Source: Streptantibioticus cattleyicolor NRRL 8057 = DSM 46488
Lineage (GTDB): Bacteria > Actinomycetota > Actinomycetes > Streptomycetales > Streptomycetaceae
NCBI RefSeq assembly: GCF_000240165.1
Contig: NC_017586.1
Span: 4,725,228-4,789,227 of the forward strand
DNA length: 64,000 bases
Direction: 5' to 3'
A program made the translations under genes and the position numbers. Positions 8,480 through 57,644 of this stretch are shown one piece after another. The first letter of the stretch is position 1, and every line of letters starts with the position of its first letter. The notes beneath the pieces are model-generated. The model had not been told where the DNA came from. It saw nothing but the letters and a program-made list of their open reading frames with translations, and did not search any database.

Positions 8480-8506
8480 ACCCCCGCTGCCCGACTTCTC
8501 CAGCGC

Positions 8507-8568
8507 GCTGGCGTCAGCCACGGACTCCTCGGGGTGCCCCGGTTCCCCGTTCCGTGGCTGACGCCAGC
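8507..8568. repeat. 18-bp perfect inverted repeat after glcP
   Basis: GCTGGCGTCAGCCACGGA (8507-8524) pairs perfectly with 8551-8568 across a 26-nt loop. It can serve as a bidirectional terminator for glcP. Its right arm merges into the left end of the dispersed element described next. Confidence 0.7.
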
Positions 8569-9045
8569 CATTAGTTTCTCGGGGTTCGCCCGTTTCCGCT
8601 TCGTCGTGGCTGGTGTCACAGCTGTTTCCCGCCCGCCCACCCGTGGCTGTACGCGTATAGCGCGGGGTGCGCACTGTCTGCCTGGGGTCCGGGGGCCCTC
8701 CGGGGTGACTCCTCGCTCCGCGTATCCGCCAAGGCTTGGCTCCGGCTGTTGGGTCGCTGCGGGGACACCCCTGCACGCCCCCGTTCTGTTGCGTTCCGCG
8801 CTGCGGCACGGGGTGGGTGAGAAAGGAGATCGGGGTGACCCCAACCTCCTATCTCACCCTCCCTCCGCGAAGAGAGGCACCCCCGACCCCGCACGGCGCA
8901 TAGGCGAAGCCCACCCCTGTGCCGAACCAAACCAAAACCCACCCCAACCACCCACCGGACAGGGGCGAACGGGGGCCACCCCGGAACCCTGAAACGGGCG
9001 AACCGGGCCACGGAGTAACGGCTGACCGCCAGCGCGAGCGAACCC
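8566..9045 (-). repeat. Dispersed MITE-like element, copy A (internally deleted)
   Basis: This 480-bp non-coding stretch between the convergent glcP and NCS1 genes is, read on the minus strand, the same sequence as 54899-55505 with many small differences and one internal deletion of about 100 bp. Shared blocks include the CCACCCGTGGCTGT and GCGCACTGTCTGCCT words, the CGCTGCGGGGACACCCC block, a central palindrome (8815-8859), and a terminal repeat at 9015-9045 that matches the copy at 55475-55505 at 30 of 31 positions. No plausible protein is encoded. See findings. Confidence 0.85.
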
Positions 9046-9073
9046 GCGCGAGCGAACCCGCGCGAGCGGAGCC
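9032..9073. repeat. Three tandem 14-mers
   Basis: GCGCGAGCGAACCC at 9032-9045 and again at 9046-9059, then a variant GCGCGAGCGGAGCC at 9060-9073, ending exactly at the stop codon of the NCS1 permease. The first copy is the outer end of the dispersed element, so its edge appears to have been amplified. Confidence 0.8.
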
Positions 9074-51890: not shown

Positions 51891-51943
51891 CCTGGCACTG
51901 ATATCGTCTGAACGCCCAAAAGTGAACACCTGATCCAATTCCG

Positions 51944-52033
51944 ACAGGGGAGCGCGCCAGCGCTGAGAGTGCGGCCGGCCACGCCACGCCGCAGACCCTC
52001 GAACCTGATCCGGGTAATGCCGGCGAAGGGAGT
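51944..52033 (+). promoter_or_regulatory. TPP (THI-box) riboswitch
   Basis: The thiamine pyrophosphate aptamer is recognisable by CTGAGAG (51963-51969) in the pyrimidine-sensor arm and by ACCTGATCCGGGTAATGC (52003-52020) in the diphosphate-sensor arm, closed by GGGGAGC at the front and GAAGGGAG at the end. The final purine run is also the ribosome site of the next gene (ATG 52040), so control is probably at translation initiation. TPP binding should turn the transporter off. Confidence 0.95.
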
Positions 52034-52039
52034 TCGGCC

Positions 52040-52666
52040 ATGACACCGGCCAATCCGCGACCGCGGCCCGATTCCGCGGCCACCACCACGCCCGCCCGCA
52101 CCAACCGCTGGCGCACCGTCGACATCGTGGTCGCCGCCGTCCTCGGCGCCGCCTTCGGCGTCATCTTCTGGGGCTGGAGCACTCTGTGGAACGGCCTGGC
52201 CAGCGCCATCCCGCTGCCCGCCCGCGGGGTGATCTACGGCGTGTGGCTGGTGCCCGCCGTCCTCGGCCCGCTGGTCATCCGCAAGCCCGGGGCCGGCATC
52301 TTCTGCGAACTGGTCGCCGCCAGCGTCGCCACCCTCTTCGGCTCCCCCTGGGGCCTGGTCACCCTCGCCTACGGGGTGCTCCAGGGCATGGCCGGCGAGT
52401 TCGGCTTCGCGCTCACCGGCTACCGCGTCTGGCGGTGGCCCACCGCGCTGGCCGGCGGCGCGCTCGCCGGGATCGCCGCCTCGCTGCTGGACAACGCGCT
52501 GTACTACGCCGCCAGCTCCACCGGCTGGCAGATCGCCTACGCCGCCCTGGTCACCGTCAGCTCCGCGGCCATCGCCGGCCTCGGCAGCCTCGCCCTCACC
52601 AGGTCGCTCGCCCAGACCGGGGTGCTCGACCCGTTCCCGTCCGGCCGCGAACGCGCCGCGGTCTGA
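52040..52666 (+). CDS. ykoE: ECF transporter substrate-binding (S) component, YkoE-like
   Basis: 208 residues, about six membrane helices after a 25-residue Pro/Thr-rich start. Length and the FWGWSTLWNGL, ARGVIYGVWLVPAVLGP and YGVLQGMAGEFGFAL segments match the YkoE family, S components for thiamine or its hydroxymethylpyrimidine precursor. Directly behind a TPP riboswitch and followed by ATPase and T-component genes, forming a complete ECF importer. Confidence 0.93.
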   Translation: MTPANPRPRPDSAATTTPARTNRWRTVDIVVAAVLGAAFGVIFWGWSTLWNGLASAIPLPARGVIYGVWLVPAVLGPLVIRKPGAGIFCELVAASVATLFGSPWGLVTLAYGVLQGMAGEFGFALTGYRVWRWPTALAGGALAGIAASLLDNALYYAASSTGWQIAYAALVTVSSAAIAGLGSLALTRSLAQTGVLDPFPSGRERAAV

Positions 52667-52687
52667 CGGCACTTCGGTGAGCACGGC

Positions 52688-54094
52688 ATGAGCACGGTAC
52701 GGCTGCGCGGCTTCGGACACCGGCACGCCGGACGCCGCCGCTGGGCGGTACGCGGCGTGGACCTGGAGATCGGCCACGGGGAACGGGTCGGACTCCTCGG
52801 CCCGTCCGGCGCCGGCAAGTCCACCCTGCTGGCCGCCCTGGCCGGACTGCTGCCGCCCGAGGCCGGCGACCGCGAGGGCACCGTCGAGATCGACGGCCGC
52901 GACCCGCGCGAGGCCCGCGAGCGCATCGGCATGGTCTTCCAGGACCCGCAGTCCCAACTGGTCATGGAACGCGCCGGGGACGACGTCGCCTTCGGCCTGG
53001 AGAACCGCGGCACGCCACCGGAGCGCATCCCCGCCCTCGTCGCCGAGGCGCTGCGCCGCGTCGGGTTCCGGTACGACGTACGGCGGCCCACCAGCGCGCT
53101 CTCCGGCGGCGAACAGCAACGCCTCGCCCTGGCCGGTGCCCTGGTCACCGGCCCCGGTCTGCTCCTGCTGGACGAGCCCACCTCCAACCTCGACCCGGCC
53201 GGCGCCGCCCTCGTCCGCGAGGTGCTGGCCGGGCTGGACGGCACCACCCAACTCGTCGTCGAGCACCGGATCGCCGAACTCGCCCCGCAACTGGACCGGA
53301 TCGTCGTCCTCGAACCGGGCGGCGGCGTCCGCGCCGACGGCCCGCCCGAAGCGGTCTTCGCCGAACACGGTGAACGCCTCGCCGCCGAGGGCGTCTGGGT
53401 GCCCGGCCACCCGCTGCCCGCCCACCCCCCGGCCGGCGCCGCCGGCCCCGAACTGCTGCGTACCCGTTCCCTCGGCCACCGCCCGGTCTTCGAACGGCTC
53501 GCCGACACCGCGGTCCAGGCCGGCGAGGCGCTCGCCGTGGTCGGCCCCAACGGCGCCGGCAAGTCGACCCTCGCCCTCCTGCTGGGCGGCCTGCTCGCCC
53601 CCACCGACGGACGGGTGGCCGCCACCGCCGAACTCGCCGGCCCCGACGCCGCCCGCCCCCCGCACCGCTGGCGCCCCCGCGTGCTCGCCGGACGCATCGG
53701 CTCCGTCTTCCAGAACCCCGAGCACCAGTTCGTCACCGCCCGGGTACGGGACGAACTCACCCTCGGCGCCGGCGATCCGGCCCGCGCCGACGAACTCCTC
53801 GTCCGCCTACGGCTGGACGCCCTCGCCGAGGCCAACCCGCACACCCTCTCCGGCGGCGAACAACGCCGGCTCTCGGTGGCCACCGCGCTCGCCGCCGCCC
53901 CCCGCCTCCTCGTCCTGGACGAACCCACCTTCGGCCAGGACCGCCGCACCTGGACCGAACTGGTCGCCCTCCTCGCCGGCCTGCGCGACGAAGGCCACGG
54001 CATCGTCGCCGTCACCCACGACCCCGACTTCACCACGGCACTCGCGGCCCGTGAACTCCGGCTCGGCGCGGCGCGGTTGGAGGTGTCCCGGTGA
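52688..54094 (+). CDS. ykoD: ECF transporter ATPase with two ABC domains (YkoD-like)
   Basis: 468 residues with two fused ABC ATPase domains. First: Walker A GPSGAGKST (about 39-47) and LSGGEQQR; second: Walker A GPNGAGKST (about 286-294) and LSGGEQRR; both with DEPT Walker B ends. Drives the thiamine-precursor importer. ATG 52688 lies 21 bp after ykoE and its stop overlaps the T-component start in GTGA. Confidence 0.95.
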   Translation: MSTVRLRGFGHRHAGRRRWAVRGVDLEIGHGERVGLLGPSGAGKSTLLAALAGLLPPEAGDREGTVEIDGRDPREARERIGMVFQDPQSQLVMERAGDDVAFGLENRGTPPERIPALVAEALRRVGFRYDVRRPTSALSGGEQQRLALAGALVTGPGLLLLDEPTSNLDPAGAALVREVLAGLDGTTQLVVEHRIAELAPQLDRIVVLEPGGGVRADGPPEAVFAEHGERLAAEGVWVPGHPLPAHPPAGAAGPELLRTRSLGHRPVFERLADTAVQAGEALAVVGPNGAGKSTLALLLGGLLAPTDGRVAATAELAGPDAARPPHRWRPRVLAGRIGSVFQNPEHQFVTARVRDELTLGAGDPARADELLVRLRLDALAEANPHTLSGGEQRRLSVATALAAAPRLLVLDEPTFGQDRRTWTELVALLAGLRDEGHGIVAVTHDPDFTTALAARELRLGAARLEVSR

Positions 54095-54858
54095 TCAACC
54101 GTGCCGCGCCCATCGCCGACCCCGCCGCGCCGCTGGCGCGGCGGAACCCGGTGGCCAAACTGGTCGCCGCCGCGGTCGTCGCGCTCGCGCTCGTGCTCAG
54201 CCTGGACCCGGTGGCGCCCGGCATCGCCTTCGGCGTCGAACTGGCCGTCGTACCGTTCTTCGGCATCCGCTACCCCGTACTCGCCCGGCGCGTCTGGCCG
54301 TTGCTGCTGGGCATCGTCGGCGCCGTGGTCACGCTCTTCCTCTTCGCCACCGACCGGCAGCACATCCTCACCTCCGCCCTGGCGCTCGCCCTGCGCCTGC
54401 TGGCCGTCGCCCTCCCCGGCGTCCTCGCCTTCGCCACCACCGACCCCACCGACCTGGCCGACGCGCTCATCCAGAACGCCAAGGTCCCCCCGCGGTTCGC
54501 CATCGGCACGCTGGCCGCCTGGCGGCTCGTCCCCCTCCTCGGCGACGAATGGCGCCTCATCCACCACGCCCGCCGCGCCCGCGGCGTCGACCCCGGCCGC
54601 AACCCCCTCGCCCACCTCCGCCTCTTCGCCTCCGCCTCCTTCACCTTGCTCGTCGGCGCGATCCGCCGCGGTACGCGTCTCGCCACCGCGATGGACGCCC
54701 GCGGCTTCGACGCGGGCACCCCCCGCACCAGCGCGCGCCGCGTCCCCTTCGGCGTGGCCGACGCCCTACTGATCGCCGCCGCGACCGGTGCCGCCGCGCT
54801 GGCGGTCGGAGTGAGCGTGTGGACAGGCGAGTTCCGCCCGATCTTCACCGCCCCCTGA
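54091..54858 (+). CDS. ykoC: ECF transporter T component (YkoC-like)
   Basis: 255 residues, about five membrane helices. The two coupling-helix motifs that touch the ATPases are visible: ARRARGVDPG and AMDARGFD. Links the S component to the ATPase pair. GTG 54091 overlaps ykoD. The gene ends 40 bp before the large dispersed repeat, with no terminator-like hairpin of its own. Confidence 0.94.
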   Translation: MINRAAPIADPAAPLARRNPVAKLVAAAVVALALVLSLDPVAPGIAFGVELAVVPFFGIRYPVLARRVWPLLLGIVGAVVTLFLFATDRQHILTSALALALRLLAVALPGVLAFATTDPTDLADALIQNAKVPPRFAIGTLAAWRLVPLLGDEWRLIHHARRARGVDPGRNPLAHLRLFASASFTLLVGAIRRGTRLATAMDARGFDAGTPRTSARRVPFGVADALLIAAATGAAALAVGVSVWTGEFRPIFTAP

Positions 54859-54898
54859 CGGTTCGCCCGCGCGGGTCCGCTACGCGCTGGCGGTCAGC

Positions 54899-55505
54899 GG
54901 GTTCGCTCGCGCTGGTGGTCAGCCATTACTCCGTGGCCCGGTTCGCCCGGTTCGGGGTGCCGGGGTGGCCCCCGTTCGCCCCTGCCCGGTGGGGGGTTGG
55001 GGTGGGTTTTTGGTCTGGTTCGGCACGGGGTGGCTTCGCCTATGCGTCGTACGGGGTCGGGGGCGCGCCGGGGGTGACTCCTCGCTCCAGGTATCCGCCA
55101 CAGCTTGGCTCCGGCTACTGGGTCGCTGCGGGGACACCCCCGACACACCCCCTTGCGCCGTCGTGCGGGTGCCTCTCTTCGCGGGTGGGGGTGAGTAAGG
55201 AGGTTGGGGTCACCCCGATCTCCTTCTCACCCCCTCCGTGCCGCAGCGCGGAACGCAACAGAACGGGGGCGTGCAGGGGTGTCCCCGCAGCGACCCAGCG
55301 GGGCGGCGGAGAGCCGACGACGAAACGTGGAGCGAGGAGTCACCCCGGAGGGCCCCCGGAAACCAAGGCAGACAGTGCGCACCCCGCACTGTACGAACAC
55401 AGCCACGGGTGGGCGGGGGAAGCATCAGTGACGCCAGCCACGACGAGACGGGGGGCCGGGGGCGCCCCGAGGAGGTAATGGCTGACCGCCAGCGCGAGCG
55501 AACCC
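54899..55505 (+). repeat. Dispersed MITE-like element, full copy B1
   Basis: 607 bp with terminal inverted repeats of 31 bp: 54899-54929 against the complement of 55475-55505, one mismatch (a T in place of C at the 18th position). Inside are a second inverted pair (about 55072-55139 and 55272-55346, containing the GGGTCGCTGCGGGGACACCCC-type block) and a central palindrome (55189-55232). The same sequence occurs inverted and shortened at 8566-9045. No transposase or plausible protein is encoded. A partial extra end (CGCTGGCGGTCAGC, 54885-54898) precedes it. The whole spacer 54859-55641 holds no gene. Confidence 0.88.
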
Positions 55506-55667
55506 TCACCCCGGAGGGCCCCCGGGAACCCAGGAAGACAGTGCGCACCCCGCGCTATACGCGTACAGCCACGGGTGGGCGGGGGGAAGCATCAGTGACG
55601 CCAGCCACGACGAGACGGGGGGCCGGGGGCGCCCCGAGGAGTCAATGGCTGACCGCCAGCGCGAGCG
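55506..55667 (+). repeat. Tandem partial copy B2 of the element, entering the permease gene
   Basis: A direct repeat of 55340-55500, about 167 bp downstream and about 90% alike by eye, beginning TCACCCCGGAGGGCCCCCGG and ending in the same terminal repeat (AATGGCTGACCGCCAGCGCG at 55644-55663). The last part is inside the minus-strand permease gene and encodes its C-terminal residues ALAVSH and the stop. Confidence 0.85.
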
Positions 55668-56706
55668 CGGCCGCTTTGGGGAGGACGGCCACCACCACGA
55701 CGGCCGAGGTCAGCGCGAGCGCGCGCACAAGCAGGGCACGGCGCAGCACCCCCACCGTCGCCCCAGCCTCCCGCAGGGAAACCGTCACCGCCCGCCTCGC
55801 CTCCCTCGCCTCCGTCGTCGCCGCTGCCGCCGCCGTCACCGCCGCGGCCAGCACGATCGCGGCACCCACGGTGGTGAAAGGGGTCGCGTACGGCGCCGGG
55901 ACAGCGGCCGGGACGGCGCACACCACCGTGGCGAGCACGGCGAAGGGGCGGCCGAGATGCCCCGCCTCGGCCTGCAGGGTGCGGCCGGAGATCAGCCGAA
56001 GGGCGCCGGGCCGCCGCCAGGACAGCAGGCGCCCGCACAGGTGCACCAGTCCCGGCCCGGCCGTCACCACCCCGACGGCGGCCAGCACCCACCCGGCCAG
56101 CGCCAGCGGCGGGACCCCGCCGAGGTGGCCGGGGAGCGGCAGGGCGGATACGCGCGGCGGGCGGCGGGCGGCGTACCCGGCGACGGCCGACCCGGCGAGG
56201 GCCGCCGCGCAGCCCCAGCCGAGCGCGGCCGGGGCGGCCGGACGCCGGCGGCGCGGACGTACCGCCACCGCGGAGGCCACCGCCGACGTCAGCGGCGCGG
56301 CCAGCAGCAACGTGGCCACCCCGGCGGCCGGCAACCGGGCCGCCTCGTGCGCCCGCGCCACCCCGGCGAGGGCGACCGCGCTGCCCAGGGCGGCGGTGAC
56401 CGCGGTGGCGAGGGCGGCGGGGAGCGCCGGGCGTCCGCGGCCGACCCGGGCCACCGCCGGGTGCGCGGGGTGGCGGCTGCCGTGGTCGGCCCGGCTCACC
56501 GCGCCCGCCAGGTAGGCCAGCGCCGCCAACGGCACCGCGCACCACGCCAGCCGCAGCGCCGAGGCGGCGGTGTCCTCCGGGTGGCGTACCGCGTTCCCGA
56601 GCGCGGCGAGCAGCAGCAGCCCGGTGCCGGCCGCCACGGCCAGCAGGACCAGCCGCCGCAGCAGGGCGGAGGGACGCGGACGCAGGATCAGTCGCAGATG
56701 GAGCAT
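55642..56706 (-). CDS. ABC transporter permease-like membrane protein with element-derived end
   Basis: 354 residues, about eight to ten hydrophobic segments, very rich in Ala/Val/Leu/Arg. No sequence-specific motif was recognised; position 52 bp after an ABC ATPase gene on the same strand makes it the likely membrane partner. FtsX/MacB-type permeases are larger, so the class is uncertain. The last codons (ALALAVSH and TGA) come from the terminal repeat of the neighbouring element, so the original C-terminus may have been longer or different. Substrate unknown. Confidence 0.7.
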   Translation of the reverse strand: MLHLRLILRPRPSALLRRLVLLAVAAGTGLLLLAALGNAVRHPEDTAASALRLAWCAVPLAALAYLAGAVSRADHGSRHPAHPAVARVGRGRPALPAALATAVTAALGSAVALAGVARAHEAARLPAAGVATLLLAAPLTSAVASAVAVRPRRRRPAAPAALGWGCAAALAGSAVAGYAARRPPRVSALPLPGHLGGVPPLALAGWVLAAVGVVTAGPGLVHLCGRLLSWRRPGALRLISGRTLQAEAGHLGRPFAVLATVVCAVPAAVPAPYATPFTTVGAAIVLAAAVTAAAAATTEAREARRAVTVSLREAGATVGVLRRALLVRALALTSAVVVVAVLPKAAALALAVSH

Positions 56707-56758: not shown

Positions 56759-57487
56759 TCACGCGGAGGTCACGCACGGGGCCGTACCCTCCTGCGCCGG
56801 TCCGGCGGGCCCCGCGTCGAGCAGGCCGTCGAGGATCGGGACGGTGCGGTCGGCGTACCGGGCGGCCTCGGGGTCGTGGGTGGCGAGCACCACGGTGATC
56901 CGGTGGGTGCGGGCGGCGGTGGTCAGGGCGCGTAGCACGTGGGCCTGGTCGGGGCGGTGCAGCGGGGCGGTGGGCTCGTCGGCGAAGAGCACGTCGGGCA
57001 CGGTGACCAGGGCGCGGGCGACGGCGACGCGCTGGCGCTGGGACTGCAGGAGGTCGGCCGGGCGGCGGCGGGCGAGCGGGGCGACGTCGAGCCGTTCGAG
57101 CCATTCGTCGGCGGCGCGGCGGGCCGTCCGGTAGGAGGCGCCGCGCAGCAGCAGCGGCAGCGCCGCGTTCTCCCGCGCGGTCAGCTCCGGCACCAGGCCG
57201 GGGACGGGGCCGACCCAGCCGAACCGGTCGCGCCGCAGCCGTTCACGGGCGCCACGGGAGCGGCTGTGCAGCGGCGTGCCGTCGAACCACACCTCGCCGG
57301 CCTCCGGGCGCAACTGGCCGGACAGACAGGCCAGCAGCGTGGACTTGCCGGCTCCGCGGGGGCCGAGGACGGCCAGGATCTCACCGGGCGGCACGCCCAC
57401 CGTGGCGCCGAGCAGCGCGGGGGAGCCCTGGTGCGAGCAGCGCAGCCCGCGGGCCCACAGCAGGTGGTTGCCGGGCGGCGCCGTCAT
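56759..57487 (-). CDS. ABC transporter ATP-binding protein with degenerate signature
   Basis: 242 residues. Walker A LGPRGAGKST (41-50), Walker B VLFADE (166-171) and the switch His in ATHD are intact. The signature that should read LSGGQ is LQSQR (147-151), the Q-loop Gln is replaced (WVGPVPGLVP, 91-100), and the D-loop is APLHRPD. Folding as a MacB/LolD-like exporter ATPase is likely, but ATP-driven transport may be altered. ATG 57487 has GGAGG seven bases upstream. Pairs with the downstream membrane protein. Confidence 0.85.
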   Translation of the reverse strand: MTAPPGNHLLWARGLRCSHQGSPALLGATVGVPPGEILAVLGPRGAGKSTLLACLSGQLRPEAGEVWFDGTPLHSRSRGARERLRRDRFGWVGPVPGLVPELTARENAALPLLLRGASYRTARRAADEWLERLDVAPLARRRPADLLQSQRQRVAVARALVTVPDVLFADEPTAPLHRPDQAHVLRALTTAARTHRITVVLATHDPEAARYADRTVPILDGLLDAGPAGPAQEGTAPCVTSA

Positions 57488-57644
57488 GCGGGTACCTCCG
57501 CTCGTCCGTCCGTTCGTCCTCACCGGGGCGAACGAGCCGGGGGCGGATCGGTTACCGCGCGCACGGGCCCCGTGCCGTCCGTTCGGGGGAGGACGGCGGC
57601 ACGGGGCCCGCGGGTCAGGGAGGGATCGCGTCGCGCGAGGGGGG

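Follow-up and report, generated by a model that had tools for sequence, protein, structure and literature searches.

An interspersed palindromic element of Streptantibioticus cattleyicolor that probably rewrote the last codons of a permease-like gene

The spacer between two convergent genes of Streptantibioticus cattleyicolor NRRL 8057 = DSM 46488, encoding a CbiQ-type transport protein and a permease-like protein, consists entirely of an interspersed palindromic non-coding element, and it is highly probable that this element rewrote the final codons of the second of these genes. The genes lie in a window of 64,000 nucleotides (the whole stretch of DNA analysed; NC_017586.1, positions 4,725,228 to 4,789,227), the features of which are collected in Table 1. 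Read directly, the end of the minus-strand gene (55668-55642) is GCG CTC GCG CTG GCG GTC AGC CAT TGA, and the encoded C-terminus is VAVLPKAAALALAVSH. The 24 nucleotides CGCTCGCGCTGGCGGTCAGCCATT (55667-55644) are an exact match to the inner tip of the main element copy, B1 (55475-55505). The last residues, LALAVSH, coincide with the element tip, and the stop position lies within a second, partial copy, B2.

An earlier note on this DNA had proposed that a partial tandem copy ends inside the permease gene and that its terminal repeat supplies both the final codons and the TGA. The tandem copy is borne out by Tandem Repeats Finder (55340-55667: period 167, 2.0 copies, 93% matches) as well as by the 24-nucleotide tip identity, and the attribution of the codons holds for LALAVSH. 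It does not extend to the TGA as part of the repeat consensus, as B1 reads CATTAC where the gene reads CATTGA and only the first T is common to both.

Table 1. Features of the window, with positions counted from its first base.
Feature	Position	Strand	Remarks
CbiQ-type transport protein gene	54091..54858	+	TGA, then directly the element left tip
Element left tip, about two tandem 25-nt units	54859..54929		starts at the base after the upstream gene's stop codon
Palindromic core	55058..55358		73% match to its own reverse complement
Right tip of B1 (main copy), GTAATGGCTGACCGCCAGCGCGAGCGAACCC	55475..55505		inverted to 54899-54929, 97% complementary
B2, partial tandem copy of the element right end (167 nt)	55506..55667		period 167
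Permease-like gene, 354-aa hydrophobic protein	55642..56706	-	C-terminus ...VVVVAVLPKAAALALAVSH, then stop
24 nt of element terminal repeat: codons for LALAVSH and the T of TGA	55644..55667	-	
Stop codon TGA of the permease-like gene	55642..55644	-	commonest element reading there is TAC
Second window copy of the element, internally shortened	8504..9047	-	C2:4733731-4734274

The label "ABC permease" used in the earlier note is based on the hydrophobic sequence and on the adjoining ATPase gene (56759-57523), which matches PF00005 and presumably encodes the partner of the permease-like protein. The protein itself matched no Pfam or NCBIfam model, and its homologues likewise gave no match to Pfam (four tried) or NCBIfam (two of these four). 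Its last hydrophobic segment retains a hydropathy peak of 2.48 even without the final eight residues, suggesting that membrane insertion may not depend on the tail. On the other side of the spacer, the CbiQ-type gene closes a plus-strand cluster (51936-54858) in which a TPP riboswitch (63.7 bits, above the gathering score) precedes genes for an ABC_cobalt-type permease, a double ATPase and the CbiQ-type protein; we take this cluster, whose end abuts the element, to be a likely thiamine-related ECF transporter operon.

Matches to the permease-like protein were present in 111 of 121 family genomes, its own included. We read the C-termini of 30 homologues (29 loci and one more), all from other Streptomycetaceae and 35-54% identical to the window protein over the best segment. 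As the earlier note had anticipated, its ALAVSH end was not shared: AVSH is the end of none of the 30, and an element tip between 30 nt before and 67 nt after the stop is likewise missing from all of them. These homologues represent other genera or species groups rather than element-free conspecific strains, the genome analysed here being the one member of its genus in the collection. Many end in TWAVAQLAALPLAR or similar, with tails such as LAALPLAR. By hand count, 26 residues follow the last conserved arginine in the window protein versus 25 in the best-scoring homologue (L033), and this near-constant length (a change of about one residue) suggests that the C-terminus was overwritten, not truncated. 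Of the two possibilities raised earlier, that the element altered or created the C-terminus, it is alteration that stands, the end having been replaced at almost the same length rather than created anew. Since homologues read AALxLA (AALPLA) near the end, some of ALALA may be native, a doubt that does not touch VSH or the position of the stop. Microhomology between the native gene end and the tip was also considered, and was unsupported beyond GC bias (a mean of 13.0 of 21 for the DNA of homologue ends against the window sequence versus 11.6 for coding sequence at large).

The stop codon of the permease-like gene required copy-specific base changes that are absent from the element consensus. 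Among 71 tips found by pattern, the continuation is CATTAC in 47 and CATTGA in two, these two being the tips at the permease-like gene and at a gene for a GH101 endo-alpha-N-acetylgalactosaminidase, both fused in frame. The GH101 gene reads the tip in the same frame as the permease-like gene and ends LALAASH. Both CATTGA tips fall among the four tips with a gene end inside, for which the chance, treating tips as independent, is 6 in 2485; related copies are not strictly so, and the stop-codon argument rests on these two events. If the TGA is disregarded, the permease-like frame stays open for 28 more codons, to the next in-frame stop. The idea that the tip generally supplies a TGA was rejected, as TRA is missing before 29 of the 31 tips that have no gene end or internal joint in front of them, and TAA and TAG are also present at joints.

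The element is about 600-790 nt long, with copies differing by 8-20%, and is bounded by inverted tips (inward CGGTTCGCTCGCGCTGGCGGTCAGCCATTAC) that in some copies comprise two or three tandem 25-nt units. Its RNA fold, computed for 54890-55680, gave z = -10.8 versus 20 shuffles. The same stretch had at least 40 full-strand matches, the best 40 of 157 candidates having been scored. A 23-nt tip pattern gave 66 genome matches with at most three mismatches (42 of these with none; 34 and 32 on the two strands) and its reversed control none, while a core motif gave 91 matches versus one for its control. Merged matches in the fetched regions form 52 clusters, some of which are half copies or fragments of a single copy, and we put the copy number at about 50, on the chromosome. 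The genome searched comprises 8,095,515 bases in two contigs; among the matches listed, copies are on C2 (6,282,967 bases) and none on C1 (1,812,548 bases, 1.81 Mb, 22% of the genome). A plasmid collection, from which this genome's own records may be missing, gave no element match, and Rfam gave a sub-threshold match alone (mir-4654, 23.2 bits versus a gathering score of 87). The joint between B1 and B2, CCGGGGTRA followed directly by GGGTTCGC, occurs at seven loci, the window's included, which led us to reject B2 as a local accident and to regard it as part of an element sub-type.

Some copies are interrupted or incomplete. In one (3609699-3611124), about 0.9 kb of DNA interrupts the element at copy position 501/504 and includes a 253-codon gene, transposase-like by eye. 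Half copies starting near the palindrome centre occur at two loci, L107 (2307363, 2308293, 2311067) and L110 (2578016, 2580949), and in four of these five a gene stop codon precedes the half copy by 9-19 nt. An integron-like reading of them was dropped, as they begin near the palindrome centre, and it was further weakened by the genes adjoining them, which are unrelated by eye.

Element matches (E <= 0.001) were found in at least 24 of 121 family genomes, the source genome included, with four candidates scored per genome. Those beyond the source genome are mostly short, and genus g13 has the best of them, in G012 (3.8e-23) and G025 (2.6e-17). At E <= 1e-6 the element was present at two of 48 loci of genus g13 (L111, L130) and at none of the 30 permease loci, many of these loci being only about 1 kb long. 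In G025 (L111, 1684-1990), the orthologue of the S. cattleyicolor gene at 4087115 (minus strand) carries tip-like TTCGCTCGCGCTTGGCGG directly after its TAG, with a related core 0.2 kb on, which puts an element at the corresponding place in a second genus. Genus g13 also seems by eye to have a different spacer repeat just behind gene ends, with GGTTCGG-ACCGCCGG and CGCCGTCGCGGCGG motifs (loci L117, L120, L124, L146, L147 and L154).

Other genes end inside or at copies of the element. Gene calls near copies came from a codon-usage script rather than annotation, and some of the shorter ones are doubtful. The gene ends collected numbered 48 (46 and two added); 13 were left out of a first chimeric query and 15 more out of a second, the window permease being among those 15 and compared separately as above; the C-termini of 20 copy-adjoining genes were compared with those in genomes G012, G025 and G034 (genus g13). 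Six of the 20 end inside the element, five with element-coded tails and a glycosyltransferase gene with an ill-defined one. A PP2C-like gene (so named by eye; no Pfam match) runs ten residues, GVPPVPLRRG, past the stop of all three of its homologues, and an MFS transporter, with PIPSRRG at its end, is about 14 residues longer than its one homologue. In an alpha/beta hydrolase the tip provides the TAA that follows a final NAFRSR, and the protein is shorter than two homologues by 3 and 11 residues; the GH101 enzyme equals its one homologue in length and differs from it in the last six residues. In a ROK-family gene the tip is read in another frame, giving the end GFARAGGQP, of which no homologue was found. 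The last residues of the glycosyltransferase are element-coded, and two homologues are longer and different there.

The other 14 genes end at or near a tip. Eleven of them are within two residues of the length of at least one homologue, and the remaining three are shorter by about 6, 10-12 and 21 residues. Most abutting genes thus appear unaltered, or changed only in the last residue or two. The earlier note saw in the element a route to gene-end evolution, which the genes with element-coded tails support; the 11 of 14 preserved lengths count against a general claim of altered gene ends.

The least expected feature of the element is the exactness with which its tips abut stop codons, although target choice is not proven by it. 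Using closed gene calls with a score of at least 30, and accepting as a tip match at most 5 mismatches of 14, a tip follows the stop at 0 nt in 19 of the 47 gene ends that adjoin copies or lie within them, versus 3 of the 183 remaining gene ends of the stretches examined (Fisher p 2.5e-12). Allowing 1 nt raises the control count to 8 and leaves the copy-adjoining count at 19. One of the 19 (the MFS gene, 1461537, minus strand) is counted also among the element-coded tails because an element fragment precedes the main tip. The last codon is TCC or CCC in 12 of the 19 abutting ends versus 9 of the 183 others (p 1.6e-9). Abutting stops comprise 16 TGA, 2 TAA and 1 TAG (background 154, 11 and 18), and this usage, much as in the background, suggests that they are native. 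Where tips lack a preceding gene end or internal joint, two of 31 follow TRA, some of these tips being inner tandem units; ten further tips are near but not at a stop. The recurrent internal element joint likewise follows TRA. A second convergent-gene spacer, at 2292305-2292921, is also all element.

To account for the permease-like gene, we propose that arrival of the element, or recombination, at the 3' end of the gene would have removed a native end like TWAVAQLAALPLAR, this earlier end being inferred from the 35-54% identical homologues with their variable C-termini. The reading frame would then have run into the element tip, and changes from CATTAC to CATTGA may have been favoured for closing immediately a frame that would otherwise end 28 codons further on. 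As the new tail is hydrophobic and nearly of the old length, the protein probably still works. The PP2C-like, MFS, alpha/beta hydrolase and GH101 genes, in which the same process may have acted, support this proposal. It is very improbable that the gene end is native and that its likeness to the element is convergent or stems from GC-rich low complexity. Many homologues do end ALPLAR or similar, loosely like ALALA, but the 24-nt identity runs on into about 140 nt of element downstream, the tip pattern has no reversed-control match in the genome, and AVSH is missing from all 30 homologues.

How the element came to lie so exactly at gene ends bears on this proposal. It might choose its target at the DNA level (CYCYCC-TRA) and join directly behind stops, genes ending inside it being slipped joints. 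The excess of 0-nt tips, the enrichment of TCC and CCC last codons, the 11 of 14 genes keeping their C-terminal length and the internal joint behind TRA all point that way, but so few of the 31 remaining tips follow TRA, and the seven equal internal joints may represent one event. Neither a transposase (in the gene calls) nor a target duplication (in the flanks, by eye) was found, and selection against insertion within genes would likewise concentrate survivors at gene ends, leaving target choice a rather doubtful explanation. Alternatively, the element may be a spacer or terminator sequence of long standing that is inherited vertically, spreads mostly through recombination and was brought up to stop codons by long-term loss of spacer down to the coding limit. 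This would fit the G025 orthologue with its tip-like sequence right after TAG, the 8-20% difference among copies and the wholly element-derived spacer at 2292305-2292921. However, erosion would be expected to leave joints less regular than the exact 0-nt ones seen here, with their intact tips, and the scarcity of the element at the permease and g13 loci, short as many of these are, also speaks against inheritance, which we consider somewhat unlikely. Returning to rewriting by the element, only tentatively would we extend it to a mobile or recombining Streptomycetaceae family that seeks gene ends, sets its tips exactly behind stops (CYCYCC-TRA joined to CGGTTCGC), replaces whole 3' spacers and sometimes rewrites the last codon or residues.

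Repeats encoding the stops or tails of bacterial genes are already known, and the present case is one of another element, in a GC-rich actinomycete. REP/BIME sequences are short palindromic units of 20-40 nt, whereas the core palindrome here is about 300 nt. Terminal inverted repeats, as in MITEs, are present (in the window, inverted tips of 31 nt that are 97% complementary), as are dispersed copies without a transposase of their own (about 50, with no called gene within a copy, judging from the nearest genes given by the codon-usage caller); no target site duplication is evident by eye at copy flanks. Rickettsia palindromic elements, Correia elements and other MITEs are, in the part of a review available to us, small repeats read in frame, and those given with a size there are 107-155 bp, compared with 600-790 nt and a 300-nt palindromic core here (PMC2229807). 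As with BOX and RU-1, the stop or last residues are supplied by the repeat and absent from homologues. According to the sections of the BOX report consulted, BOX encodes the extreme 3' end, stop included, of 36 genes of Streptococcus pneumoniae, with no strong evidence of truncation versus orthologues (PMC3049150). The likeness lies in interspersed repeats that supply gene ends with their stops; BOX differs in being another element in a distant host, and the exact joining at stops present here is not stated in those sections (PMC3049150). In enterobacteria, RU-1 (ERIC/IRU) is described, in the portion of its report consulted, as having joined an amidase gene at its 3' end, with the normal stop removed and the tail ending at a stop from a point mutation inside the repeat (PMC2759123). 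This resembles the present case in having a repeat-coded C-terminal tail closed by a stop arising within the repeat, but RU-1 is a 127-bp element with a tail of about 35 residues, and that portion describes no stop-codon abutment (PMC2759123). In titles and the opening parts of abstracts, with few subscription journals covered, we found this repeat undescribed in Streptomyces and no description of regular 0-nt joining to stops.

Several proteins of one genome thus appear to owe their ends to one repeat family, with homologues as the control, and two of these proteins have a stop codon that arose at one and the same position in the repeat. Were target choice behind the 0-nt joining, the family would offer a system in which to test how gene ends are found by an element; were selection behind it, the joining would show how tightly spacers can be packed.
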